From: Candidatus Rokuibacteriota bacterium | GTDB taxonomy: Bacteria > Methylomirabilota > Methylomirabilia > Rokubacteriales > JACPHL01 | DNA: 27,942 nt | NCBI GenBank assembly: GCA_016188625.1 | Contig: JACPHL010000046.1 | Location: 1 to 27,942 of the forward strand | Direction: 5' to 3' | Shown: positions 7,578 to 24,379 of the stretch, in pieces | Numbering within the stretch: the stretch's first letter is position 1 | Layout: every line of letters begins with the position of its first letter | Program-made: the position numbers and the translations under genes | Notes under the pieces: model-generated | The model's input: the letters and a program-made list of their open reading frames with translations, nothing else | Told to the model about the DNA's origin: nothing | Database searches by the model: none

Positions 7578-7763
7578 ACTCGGAGGGGGGTTCCGCCCCC
7601 CTCGGACGGCCCCGCGGGAGGCGGCGGCCCCTCGCTCCACACGCTCCGCGGCGCACCCGTCAGTGGCTCGCCGGGCGGGGCCCCTCCTCCTTCGTTCTGA
7701 GCCCGTCCTCCGGCTTCCCCACCCGGCTCGCTCACGACGGGGACCCGCGCCGCTCCGCTTGAC
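7578..7763. repeat. Dispersed intergenic repeat, copy 1
   Basis: This copy fills most of the 201-base gap between metK and ahcY. It aligns by eye, almost end to end, with 24110-24294 in the same orientation. Shared blocks include ACTCGGAGGGGGG at the left end, CCCCTCGCTCC and GGCGCACCCG in the middle, and CTTCCCCACCCGGCTCGCTC followed by CGGGGACCCGCGCCG at the right. An eight-base stem with a five-base loop occupies 7583-7603 (GAGGGGGG/CCCCCCTC). Read on the minus strand, both copies encode the peptide SEPGGEAG, but no credible gene is present. It lacks the right-hand GGGGGGCAGACTCCCC end found in the other two copies, so it may be truncated. Confidence 0.85.
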
Positions 7764-7769
7764 ACATTC

Positions 7770-8921
7770 TTAGAGGCCGGCGTCTTCGCGCAGGTCGGCC
7801 ACCCGGTCGGTCCGCTCCCAGGTGAACTCGGGCTCCTCGCGCCCGAAGTGGCCGTAGGCCGCGGTCTGCTTGAAGATGGGCCGGCGCAGGTTCAGGTACT
7901 TGATGATCCCGGCCGGGGTGAGATCGAAATGGCGCCGGATCATCGCCTCGAGCTCGGCGTTGGGGAGCTTGCCGGTCCCGAAGGTCTCCAGCATGACCGA
8001 GATGGGGTCGGCGACCCCGATCACGTAGGCGACCTGCAGCATCGCCCGCTCCGCCAGACCGGCCGCCACGAGGTTCTTGGCGATGTGGCGGACCATGTAC
8101 GAGGCCGAGCGGTCCACCTTGGTCGGGTCCTTGCCGGAGAAGGCGCCGCCGCCGTGGGGGCAGGCCCCCCCGTAGGTGTCCACGATGATCTTCCGCCCGG
8201 TGAGGCCGGTGTCCGCTTGCGGCCCGCCCGTCACGAAGCGGCCGGTCGGGTTGATGAAGTAGGTCACCGTCGTGGGGTCCAGCAGCTCGGGCGGGATGGA
8301 GGGGAGGATGACGTGGTCGATCACCTCGTCCCGGACCTGGGACAGGCTGACGTCGGGGGAGTGCTGGCAGGCGATCACGACCTTCTCGACCCGCCGCGGC
8401 CTGCCGTCCACGTAGCGGATGGTGACCTGGGACTTCCCGTCGGGGCGGAGATACGGGAGGATCCCCTCCTTGCGGACCTGGGAGAGCCGCCGGACGAGCC
8501 GGTGGGCCAGGGAGATGGGCAGCGGCATCAGCTCGGGGGTCTCGGTGCAGGCGTACCCGAACATGAGCCCCTGATCCCCGGCCCCGAGGGAGTTCACCCC
8601 CATGGCGATGTCGGGGGACTGCTCGTCGATGGAGACGATGACCCCGCAGGTCTCGTAGTCGAAGCCGAACTTGGCCCGTGTGTAGCCGACGCCGCGGATG
8701 GTCTCCCGGGCGATCCGCGGGATGTCCACGTAGCAGGAGGTCGTGATCTCCCCGGCGACCACGACCAGGCCGGTGGTCAGGAGGACCTCGCAGGCGACCC
8801 GCCCCGGGGGGTCCTGCTCCATGATCGCATCCAGCACGGCATCCGAGATCTGGTCAGCGATCTTGTCCGGGTGGCCTTCGGTCACCGACTCCGAGGTGAA
8901 CAGGTACCCTTGTTGCGCCAT
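7770..8921 (-). CDS. metK: S-adenosylmethionine synthetase
   Basis: MetK makes S-adenosylmethionine from ATP and methionine in the cytosol. The protein has 383 residues, the usual bacterial length. Motifs are the ATP-site GHPDK (16-20), [12 protein letters not shown] (113-124) and the phosphate-binding [17 protein letters not shown] (257-273). The ATG at 8919-8921 has a near-ideal ribosome-binding site, GGGAGGAG at 8928-8935, six bases upstream. A likely promoter lies 40-75 bases upstream, leaving a 5' leader of only about 35 bases. There is therefore no room for a SAM riboswitch. It follows the phosphoglucose/phosphomannose isomerase gene and precedes ahcY. The gene appears intact and ordinary. 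Confidence 0.98.
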
Positions 8922-8964
8922 CCTGGGCTCCTCCCTTCGGCCGTCTCGATCAGTGGCTCGCGTC

Positions 8965-8994
8965 AGTGTAACACAGGGGGCAGCGGGGCCTCAA
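8965..8994 (-). promoter_or_regulatory. Predicted sigma-70-type promoter for metK
   Basis: On the minus strand TTGAGG (8989-8994) and TACACT (8965-8970) are separated by 18 bases, a fair match to -35 and -10 elements. Transcription would start near 8958, about 37 bases before the metK ATG. The -35 element overlaps the stop codon of the upstream isomerase gene, so metK could be read both from this promoter and by read-through. Confidence 0.5.
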
Positions 8995-10043
8995 ACCCTT
9001 TCCTCGAGCTGGCGCTTGAGGGCCTCGATGGTCTCGACCGGCCAGGGATCCACCCCCCGGAGGGCCGCCAGGTAGAGGCTCACCCAGTCCCCCGTCGCGA
9101 CGAGGGAGAGCAGCCGCGCCAGCCGGCCCCTGCCCCGGGACCAGACCTCCCGGCTCTCGGCCGCGCGGTCCACGATCGCGCGGGTGAGGGCGATCCGCCT
9201 GGCGACCCGGGGGTGATCGCCGGCATCGCGGAGGAAGACCGCGGCGCAGCGCCCCGCCAGCGGGTCCCCCGCCCACCCGGTCAGCTCGTTGTGGCCGAGC
9301 TCGGGGAGGACGCCCGCCACCGCCAGGACCTTGGCGTTCTCCTCGAGCTGGGTCTTCCACCGGTAGGCGCACGGCCCCGAGAGCCCGTCGGTCCCGTACA
9401 CCACCGGGAGCCGGTCGTGGAGCCAGCGGGCGAGCGCCTTGGCCGGGTTCTCGGCCTCGGGGCGACCGGGGCCCAGCTCATCGCCGAGGGCGCCGAGGAG
9501 CTCGGCCGCCTCGGCCAGCTCGCCCGGCTCGAGGAGCGCCAGGCCGACCCGCTCCAGGACGCGGAGAAGGGGGAGGAACAAGTAGGCGAGGGCCGCGCGA
9601 GGCGGGAAGCCGGCGGGGAGCTCGATGAGCGGGAGACCGCGGCCCCGCGCCCGTCGCCCCAGCTCGCCGCCGCCGGTGAGGACCAGGGGGGCGGCCCCGC
9701 GCGCGAGGGCGGCCTCGAAGGCGCTCAAGGTCTCCTCGGTGTCGCCCGAGTAGCTCACGGCCACGACGAGCGCCTCGGGGCCGATCCAGGCCGGCAGGGC
9801 GTAGCCGCGCACGACCTCGACCGGGACAGGGAGGCGGTCGCGCGCCAGGGCCCGCAGGAGGTCCCCGCCGATCGCCGAGCCTCCCATCCCGAGGACGGCG
9901 ACCTGCCGGATCGGGCCGGGGGGGAGCGGGGCGGCCTCGGCGAGGCCCCAGGCCTCGATCAGCTGCTCGGGGAGGCGGCGGAGGAGCTGCCAGAACCCCC
10001 GAGGGTCGTGACGGGTGAGGAGGTCCGGGGCGTCCAGCGCCAC
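8991..10043 (-). CDS. Bifunctional phosphoglucose/phosphomannose isomerase (SIS family)
   Basis: The 350-residue cytosolic protein has tandem SIS domains of the archaeal/bacterial PGI/PMI type. This family interconverts glucose 6-phosphate or mannose 6-phosphate with fructose 6-phosphate. The first SIS domain shows GMGGSAIGGD (52-61) and SYSGDTEET (97-105), which bind the sugar phosphate. The second carries the family's catalytic region with EENAK and ELGHNEL in the middle of the chain. The length is about 20-50 residues above the smallest archaeal members. The GTG start at 10041-10043 directly abuts the rapZ stop, so the two are translationally close. It may feed fructose 6-phosphate or mannose 6-phosphate into LPS and envelope sugar synthesis. 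Which activity dominates cannot be told from sequence. Confidence 0.88.
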   Translation of the reverse strand: MALDAPDLLTRHDPRGFWQLLRRLPEQLIEAWGLAEAAPLPPGPIRQVAVLGMGGSAIGGDLLRALARDRLPVPVEVVRGYALPAWIGPEALVVAVSYSGDTEETLSAFEAALARGAAPLVLTGGGELGRRARGRGLPLIELPAGFPPRAALAYLFLPLLRVLERVGLALLEPGELAEAAELLGALGDELGPGRPEAENPAKALARWLHDRLPVVYGTDGLSGPCAYRWKTQLEENAKVLAVAGVLPELGHNELTGWAGDPLAGRCAAVFLRDAGDHPRVARRIALTRAIVDRAAESREVWSRGRGRLARLLSLVATGDWVSLYLAALRGVDPWPVETIEALKRQLEERV

Positions 10044-23741: not shown

Positions 23742-23769
23742 GGCGGGTCCCCGGCGCGGGAGAATCCCC

Positions 23770-23798
23770 TTGACGGCGGGACGCCGCGAGGGTAAGGT
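23770..23798 (+). promoter_or_regulatory. Predicted promoter for rpsT
   Basis: TTGACG (23770-23775) and TAAGGT (23793-23798) lie 17 bases apart on the plus strand. A start near 23805 would leave a leader of about 23 bases before the rpsT start, containing the AGGAGGT ribosome-binding site (23814-23820). Confidence 0.55.
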
Positions 23799-23827
23799 GA
23801 ACCCCGCACCGAGAGGAGGTGAGCCGA

Positions 23828-24109
23828 GTGGCCAACACGCGATCCGCGCTCAAGCGGATGCGCCAGAACGAGACGCGGCGACTCCGGAACAGCGCGGTCC
23901 GGTCGTCGGTGAAGACGGTCGTCAAGACCGTCCGGACCACGCTGGGCGCGGGCTCGGCGACCGAGGCGGAGCAGGCCCTGGCCCGGGCGATCCGGACCCT
24001 CGACAAGGCCGTGACCAAGGGCGTGCTCCACAAGAACACCGCGGCCAGGAGGAAGTCCCGGCTGGCCCGGCAGCTCCGCGCCCTCCAGACCGCATCCTCC
24101 TCTTCCTGA
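23828..24109 (+). CDS. rpsT: 30S ribosomal protein S20
   Basis: S20 binds 16S rRNA at the base of the 30S body. The protein has 93 residues, rich in Lys and Arg and almost wholly helical. It begins with the family-typical MANTRSALKRMRQNE, has NSAVRSSVKTVVK in the first third, and includes the conserved KGVLHKNTAARRKSRL near the C-terminus. I chose the GTG at 23828-23830 because AGGAGGT ends seven bases upstream. An earlier in-frame GTG at 23819-23821 overlaps that ribosome-binding site. It is the only plus-strand gene in the window, divergent from murJ and convergent with holA. An intergenic repeat begins at its stop codon. Confidence 0.97.
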   Translation: MANTRSALKRMRQNETRRLRNSAVRSSVKTVVKTVRTTLGAGSATEAEQALARAIRTLDKAVTKGVLHKNTAARRKSRLARQLRALQTASSSS

Positions 24110-24379
24110 ACTCGGAGGGGGGCTCCCCCGCCTTCGGATGGTCCTGCGGGAGGCGCCGACCCCTCGCTCCGCACGCTCCACGGCGCACCCGCCTATGGCT
24201 CGCCGGCCGGGGCCCCTCCTGGTCGTGTTCCGCCCGCGAGCCGGCTTCCCCACCCGGCTCGCTCATGGCGGGGACCCGCGCCGTTCCGCTTAACGCTCCG
24301 CTCGGGGCCGACGCCTCCCGCCAGAGGGCGAGTCGCCCTCCGGCGAGCGCCTCCGGCCTGCGGGGGGGGCAGACTCCCC
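24109..24379. repeat. Dispersed intergenic repeat, copy 3 (full form)
   Basis: This copy fills nearly all of the 292-base gap between the convergent rpsT and holA genes. Bases 24110-24294 match copy 1 (7578-7763), and the two outer ends match copy 2 (13686-13787). It is therefore the most complete copy and links the other two into one family. The left hairpin is weaker here (GGGGG-CT-CCCCC near 24115-24131). A second inverted repeat lies near 24325-24345 (GAGGGCGA/TCGCCCTC). It may serve as the terminator of rpsT. No gene is credible inside it. Confidence 0.85.

Follow-up and report, generated by a model that had tools for sequence, protein, structure and literature searches.

The YPAL (RU-2) elements of Yersinia are intergenic palindromic sequences of about 168 bp that carry internal inverted repeats and are not A+T-rich (PMC2229807; De Gregorio 2006, cited there); they produce target duplications of 3 to 26 bp, are known from both empty and filled sites, and have no known transposase (PMC2229807). 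Among other small repeats, BOX is modular and SPRITE lies near gene 3' ends (PMC3049150), ERIC and Correia elements affect transcripts (PMC2229807), and a fraction of REPs is found within 15 nt of stop codons (PMC3733652, PMC2817692, PMC12306157). Here we describe a repeat family encountered on contig JACPHL010000046.1 of a Candidatus Rokuibacteriota bacterium (assembly GCA_016188625.1), of which we analyzed a stretch of 27,942 nucleotides, hereafter the window. According to our analysis, the three copies in the window very probably represent a short, GC-rich, non-autonomous mobile element which has several hairpins but neither a gene nor terminal inverted repeats, is bordered by target duplications of about 8 to 9 bp, and resides at gene junctions.

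Copies in the window

An earlier note on this DNA had reported three intergenic repeats in the same orientation. BLAST finds them where it had placed them and sharing the stretches it had described, with ends that we revise to about 7769 for copy 1, to 13684 and 13810 for copy 2, and to about 24401 for copy 3. Copy 1 lies between ahcY and metK, copy 2 between lptB and lptA, and copy 3 between rpsT and holA, where it occupies the entire convergent gap. In the BLAST comparisons, copies 1 and 3 are 84% identical over 186 bp, a left end of about 60 bp is common to copies 1 and 2 (79%) and to copies 2 and 3 (77%), and copies 2 and 3 have a right end in common (78% over 76 bp); ACTCGGAGGGGGG is present in all three. 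The features are as follows.

7578 to 7769, plus strand: copy 1, hairpin H1 and core, truncated on the right (84% BLAST identity to copy 3; match to the hidden Markov model [HMM] of the core from 7616)
7616 to 7759, plus strand: core of copy 1, truncated on the right (nhmmer match from 7616)
13676 to 13683, no strand: left target-site duplication of copy 2, CGGGCTAG (identical 8-mer on both sides)
13684 to 13810, plus strand: copy 2, a complete basic element of 127 bp with H1, branched insert, and right-end module GGGGGGCAGACTCCCCAAAAG..GGGCACATCC (delimited by the target-site duplication; covariance model R1 match to H1)
13686 to 13716, plus strand: H1 hairpin of copy 2, AACTCGGAGGGGGGCTCCGCCCCCCTTCCGA (sequence, covariance model match, DNA fold)
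13811 to 13818, no strand: right target-site duplication of copy 2, CGGGCTAG (identical 8-mer; includes the lptA stop, CTA being TAG on the minus strand)
24110 to 24401, plus strand: copy 3, the full composite with H1, core, branched insert, and right-end module (BLAST to copies 1 and 2)
24148 to 24319, plus strand: core of copy 3, about 172 bp, with inverted-repeat ends GGGAGGC-TCGGCCCC and GGGGCCGA-GCCTCCC (nhmmer; pattern count)

Copy 2 is the basic element, and not the internally shortened form for which it had been taken; copies 1 and 3 carry the core in addition. The right end of copy 1 is lost; this copy terminates in GACACAT, a right-end fragment abutting the metK stop codon, and the HMM alignment of its core extends beyond 7759 into sequence which consists of this fragment and the 3' end of metK. 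In copies 1 and 3 the minus strand can indeed be read as the peptide SEPGGEAG, as the earlier note had stated, yet this is no sign of coding: a protein-coding reading of the core is ruled out by indels of 1 to 2 nt, and no frame is open across all 29 complete copies.

Size, range, and make-up of the family

The genome from which the window derives (G000; 2.6 Mb in 344 contigs, fragmented, 84% complete) contains far more than the three copies first seen; no more than those three, by the earlier note, would have argued against a functional family. A pattern scan allowing up to 2 mismatches gives 105 matches to the H1 motif in this genome and detects the motif in 50 of the 59 genomes of the order, with no match to a reversed-pattern control in either case, while copy 3 used as a BLAST query against its own genome returns at least about 40 long matches. 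The core is matched 68 times (pattern count, up to 3 mismatches; control 0), 33 times forward and 35 times in reverse, so that the shared orientation of the three copies, correctly noted in the window, is due to chance. When 84,980 species genomes were searched with an exact pattern, the matches listed came from Candidatus Rokubacteria or Rokuibacteriota, bar three contigs. The element family is thus lineage-wide in the Candidatus Rokubacteria, at the level of the order. Of the three exceptions among the matches listed, two contigs bear the label Nitrospirae and one the label Acidobacteria; the loci L079, L105, and L133, on contigs labelled Nitrospirae (nzgw269) or Acidobacteria (AA35), hold canonical Rokubacteria elements, and these contigs are likely mislabelled or misbinned, or else the product of recent transfer.

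In delimited cases the basic element measures 94 to 135 bp and consists of H1 (TCGGAGGGGGGC..GCCCCCCTTCCGA), an optional branched insert, and CCTCCCCCC, to which relatives add a second hairpin, H2, and a tail. The layout in relatives runs from a stop codon and a few bases to H1 ACTCGGAGGGGGGCTTCGCCCCCCTTCCGA, the optional insert (for example CGCCCCGCGGCAAAGCCGCCCCCTCGCTTCGCTCGGGGCTTCGGGGGCT), CCTCCCCCC, a spacer, H2 TTGCGCCGGCAAAGCCGGCGCTCGAAC, and the tail, the two ends of the element being NNACTCGGAGGGGGG and the tail after GCTCGAA. Since the named loci were picked by the H1 motif, variation of H1 is under-sampled among them. The window's genome has the canonical form of its relatives plus a second right-end module, GGGGGGCAGACTCCCCAAAAG..GGACACAT, and harbors the core between H1 and the remainder of the element. 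The core, of about 172 bp, has ends GGGAGGC..GGCCCC and GGGGCC..GCCTCCC, and its 29 complete copies have a mean identity of 90%. It has no full match in 39 related genomes, and its pattern has no exact match in the 84,980 species genomes, a set from which its own genome may be absent; among the genomes searched, the core is specific to this one. At the start of one contig (L242, 1 to 450), the same gene end and right-end module recur in inverted form beside a core; the resulting large palindrome could be an artefact of assembly.

Empty sites and target-site duplications

When copy 2 and one of its two flanking CGGGCTAG repeats, which are 8 bp long, are excised in silico, what remains is TAG-CCCGTCC-ATG, a 7-bp gap between lptA and lptB. 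Among the 29 relatives examined, this gap measures 1 to 17 bp wherever the gene calls give a clean boundary; longer apparent gaps occur in G002, G021, G030, and G041, where the element is seen in none of the four, and those of G002, G021, and G041 are apparently due to a misplaced gene or homology boundary. At random window placement, under looser rules, such an 8-mer repeat turned up in 0.7% of trials.

Three filled sites in relatives have empty counterparts in other genomes: L127 in G019, with the duplication GGCTCATG, is empty in G033, G037, and G039; L211 in G033, with ACTCTCATG, is empty in G037, G039, and G025; and L212 in G033, with CTCATGT, is empty in G037. The duplications at these sites span 7 to 9 bp, mostly at overlapping start and stop codons, and the targets are start and stop codons that overlap or abut (TCAT being ATGA on the other strand), so that one gene can receive its start, and the other its stop, from the duplicated bases. 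Empty orthologous sites together with direct repeats mean that the family is mobile, which supports the suggestion of a non-autonomous mobile element in the earlier note. At the metK-ahcY junction, the site of copy 1, the element is present in some genomes and absent from others, varying even within genus g2, and its orientation in the window's genome is opposite to that in relatives, which indicates separate insertions. The flanks of the elements point the same way in bulk: in the '--' context, only 2 of 500 permutations of flank pairs gave repeats as high as those observed, and with all contexts pooled, flank matches of at least 8 nt occur in 34 of 212 elements, 17.8 being expected. We found no target duplication belonging to the inner core itself.

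The L211 junction (L211 3070 and L245 2371) is filled in G033 and also in G019, and the tails of the two elements are closely similar; in each genome the two flank repeats agree with each other (ACTCTCATG versus ACCCTCATG). Either the site was hit independently in the two genomes, or the repeats changed in concert.

Placement relative to genes

Gene calls come from a codon-usage gene finder that was checked against the window, and the context statistics derive from selected genome stretches, part of which were chosen for holding copies. Where the left neighbor ends at the element, the left end lies no more than 7 nt from the upstream stop codon in 75 of 83 cases, whereas uniform placement in the same gaps would give 15.2, with a maximum of 26 in 10,000 simulations; a left neighbor that begins there often has its start codon within a few bases of the element's left end. 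Divergent gaps are avoided both in relatives (2 of 98 elements versus 86 of 481 in the background) and in the window's genome (0 of 28 versus 25 of 151). Placement is therefore non-random; random placement would, by the earlier note, have argued against a functional family. Elements occur in both orientations relative to genes. Stop codons at elements are TAA in 38 cases, TGA in 35, and TAG in 34, compared with 151, 641, and 313 overall, and just upstream of elements CTAG is about twice as frequent as over all stop codons (0.22 versus 0.12), while CATG is barely enriched; a target motif C[TA][TA]G is suggestive only. Some elements in relatives, for instance at L073 and L111, overlap predicted genes, the frame at L073 entering the element as ...SSLGGGLRPPSDASPR, and such elements may be a source of protein C-termini.

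Hairpins

A covariance model of H1 and H2 matched 66 times in 948 kb; a second set of 621 kb, drawn mostly from loci selected for the H1 motif, yielded 110 matches. In the first set, 16 of the 20 pairs show two-sided changes. Compensatory cells number 72, compared with 14.5 after shuffling and no more than 11 when partners are slid; fitting the alignment to the model biases it in the model's favor, yet the margin is large. The palindromes are thus conserved by compensatory change, and the hairpin covariation for which the earlier note had proposed a test is present. Mispairs are rare, with G-T and A-C balanced and unrelated to the transcribed strand (7 G-T and 8 A-C in the '++' context; 7 G-T and 2 A-C in '--'). 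Covariation without a G·U bias favors palindromes that act at the level of DNA over a dedicated RNA, and we regard the former as the favored reading of the hairpins. Folded as DNA, copy 2 (13686 to 13807) is far more stable than shuffled sequences (z = -4.74), whereas copy 3, with its core, folds no better than they do (z = -0.12).

In canonical elements of relatives, the CCTCCCCCC that follows H1 mirrors the pyrimidine arm of H1 and is parallel-complementary to the GGAGGGGGG arm. The idea of a parallel triplex was considered, but the run lengths correlate weakly (5/5 and 6/6 runs), and it is left as an unsupported curiosity.

Explanations considered

Some observations weigh against a mobile element. 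No mover was found, PF01797, PF00872, and PF01609 all being absent from the 84%-complete genome of the window. The target duplication is no longer visible in most copies, which are presumably too old to retain it, and copies 1 and 3 are without a clear one of their own. In the '+-' context taken alone, flank repeats do not exceed permutation. Moreover, start codons come from a home-made gene finder and are approximate, stop positions being firmer.

The alternatives fare worse. A REP/BIME family mobilized in trans by a RAYT (Y1 tyrosine, IS200/IS605-like) transposase would account for imperfect palindromes in more than 100 extragenic copies, placed in convergent and co-directional gaps near stops and with compensatory changes in their stems (PMC3733652, PMC2817692, PMC12306157), and to this extent the REP-like character proposed in the earlier note, that of hairpins and placement, stands. 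The RAYT-type partner looked for does not: PF01797 (RAYT/IS200-type), searched in 40 genomes, shows no link with the element and is absent from the window's genome and from the high-copy genomes G025, G026, G033, and G039; the element flanks none of 8 Y1 loci from relatives; and an unpaired GTAG or CGTC tag was not seen at the ends, the aligned left ends reading NNACTCGG. The target duplications of 7 to 9 bp are likewise unexpected, since, to our knowledge, single-strand transposition of the IS200/IS605 type does not produce them. We therefore consider a RAYT-driven family highly improbable. A classical miniature inverted-repeat transposable element derived from a DDE insertion sequence would fit the short, non-coding, many-copied form and the duplications of 8 to 9 bp, but when the outermost 20 nt at each end were compared in six delimited elements, the longest inverted match was 4 nt, inverted ends of about 16 bp being confined to the inner core. 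Genes of PF00872 (IS256-type) and PF01609 (DDE_Tnp_1) do not track copy number in 16 genomes of high and low copy, besides being missing here, and this origin is the one to which we give least credence.

Equally hard to sustain is a structured regulatory RNA or transcription terminator, inherited vertically and placed by selection just after stop codons. Tight spacing to stops, conserved covarying hairpins, and avoidance of divergent promoter regions are all what it would lead one to expect. Against it stand the empty sites with target duplications, the occurrence of both orientations, the lack of a G-U excess on the transcribed strand, and the fold of copy 3, no better than that of shuffled sequences. 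As read from the sequence, no T-run, and hence no U-tract, follows the canonical hairpins, H1 being succeeded by TTCCGA and CCTCCCCCC and H2 by CTCGAA, and the window has no Rfam match at the gathering score. Structured RNA as the primary nature of the repeats, one of the possibilities raised earlier, is accordingly not supported and very unlikely, G-T and A-C mispairs being equally rare irrespective of strand.

Proposed mechanism

The data show insertion at gene junctions with a target-site duplication of about 8 to 9 bp. On the reading of a mobile element, an enzyme would carry out this insertion, and either insertion itself or survival after it would be favored a few bases from a stop codon or, in gene pairs that abut or overlap (ATGA), from a start codon. 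A duplicated target can hold one gene's stop together with its neighbor's start; both frames would then survive, and some 100 to 300 bp of hairpin DNA would come to lie between two intact genes. In the window's genome, the element would have acquired the core of about 172 bp, which then spread with it. By analogy with REP, ERIC, and YPAL elements (PMC12306157, PMC3733652, PMC2229807), from which both ideas are drawn, the hairpins may serve the transposition enzyme and, after insertion, might act as 3'-end or intercistronic hairpins that, like those of REP and ERIC-type elements, uncouple translation or alter the ends of mRNAs.

More tentatively, and with less than even confidence, we propose that the family represents a lineage-wide class of hairpin elements without terminal inverted repeats, whose mover, perhaps an integrase or a route through RNA, would differ from the RAYTs and the common DDE transposases tested. 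Aimed at start/stop junctions, with a duplication of 8 to 9 bp that copies both signals, such elements could insert into operons, leave both genes whole, and repeatedly uncouple translationally coupled pairs.

With this family, the Rokubacteria, an uncultured lineage, gain a repeat for which filled and empty sites exist in neighboring genomes, so that the moving enzyme and its target rule become directly searchable. Gene pairs such as lptA-lptB and metK-ahcY, overlapping or abutting in one genome and separated by a hairpin in another, offer natural experiments in operon architecture. The family also accounts for intergenic copies near contig ends in this fragmented assembly.

Other features of the window

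Two genes on the minus strand are interrupted. The leuS gene (26033 to 27845) is split by a frameshift over two overlapping frames, 26247 to 27845 and 26033 to 27112, the cause being either misassembly or true breakage of the gene. The kdsA gene (16638 to 17374) is split into two open reading frames joining near 17063, and a stretch of about 20 residues after SDVHPA is seemingly missing.

Comparison with known systems

A literature search, with most subscription papers outside its reach, found no paper describing this Rokubacteria family, which we file as a small, non-autonomous palindromic mobile element outside the REP and classical miniature inverted-repeat families. Judged by description, the nearest analogue would appear to be YPAL/RU-2, with which it has in common internal, non-terminal inverted repeats, target duplications of variable size, and empty sites. 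However, YPAL targets span or adjoin a dyad symmetry rather than start/stop junctions (PMC2229807), and YPAL, with which no common sequence is known, belongs to a single lineage of Yersinia, an unrelated organism, whereas the present family extends over a whole order and has modular inserts and a genome-specific core. REP/BIME sequences share the imperfect hairpins, the copy number above 100, and the location downstream of genes in convergent and co-directional gaps; the Rokubacteria element differs in its longer two-hairpin build, its target duplications, the missing GTAG/CGTC tag at its ends, and the want of a RAYT in the window's genome. Like BOX, RUP, and SPRITE of the pneumococcus (PMC3049150) and ERIC/IRU and Correia elements (PMC2229807), it is small, structured, intergenic, and non-coding, but most of that group carry terminal inverted repeats, TA target motifs are frequent among them, and several are A+T-rich, whereas it is GC-rich, lacks terminal inverted repeats, and has duplications of about 8 to 9 bp. 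Finally, overlapping start/stop pairs, studied for translational coupling (PMC6728339), are the same type of site as the element's targets (S1 to S3), with the difference that here the overlap is opened by a mobile element, which provides natural coupled and uncoupled versions of a gene pair.

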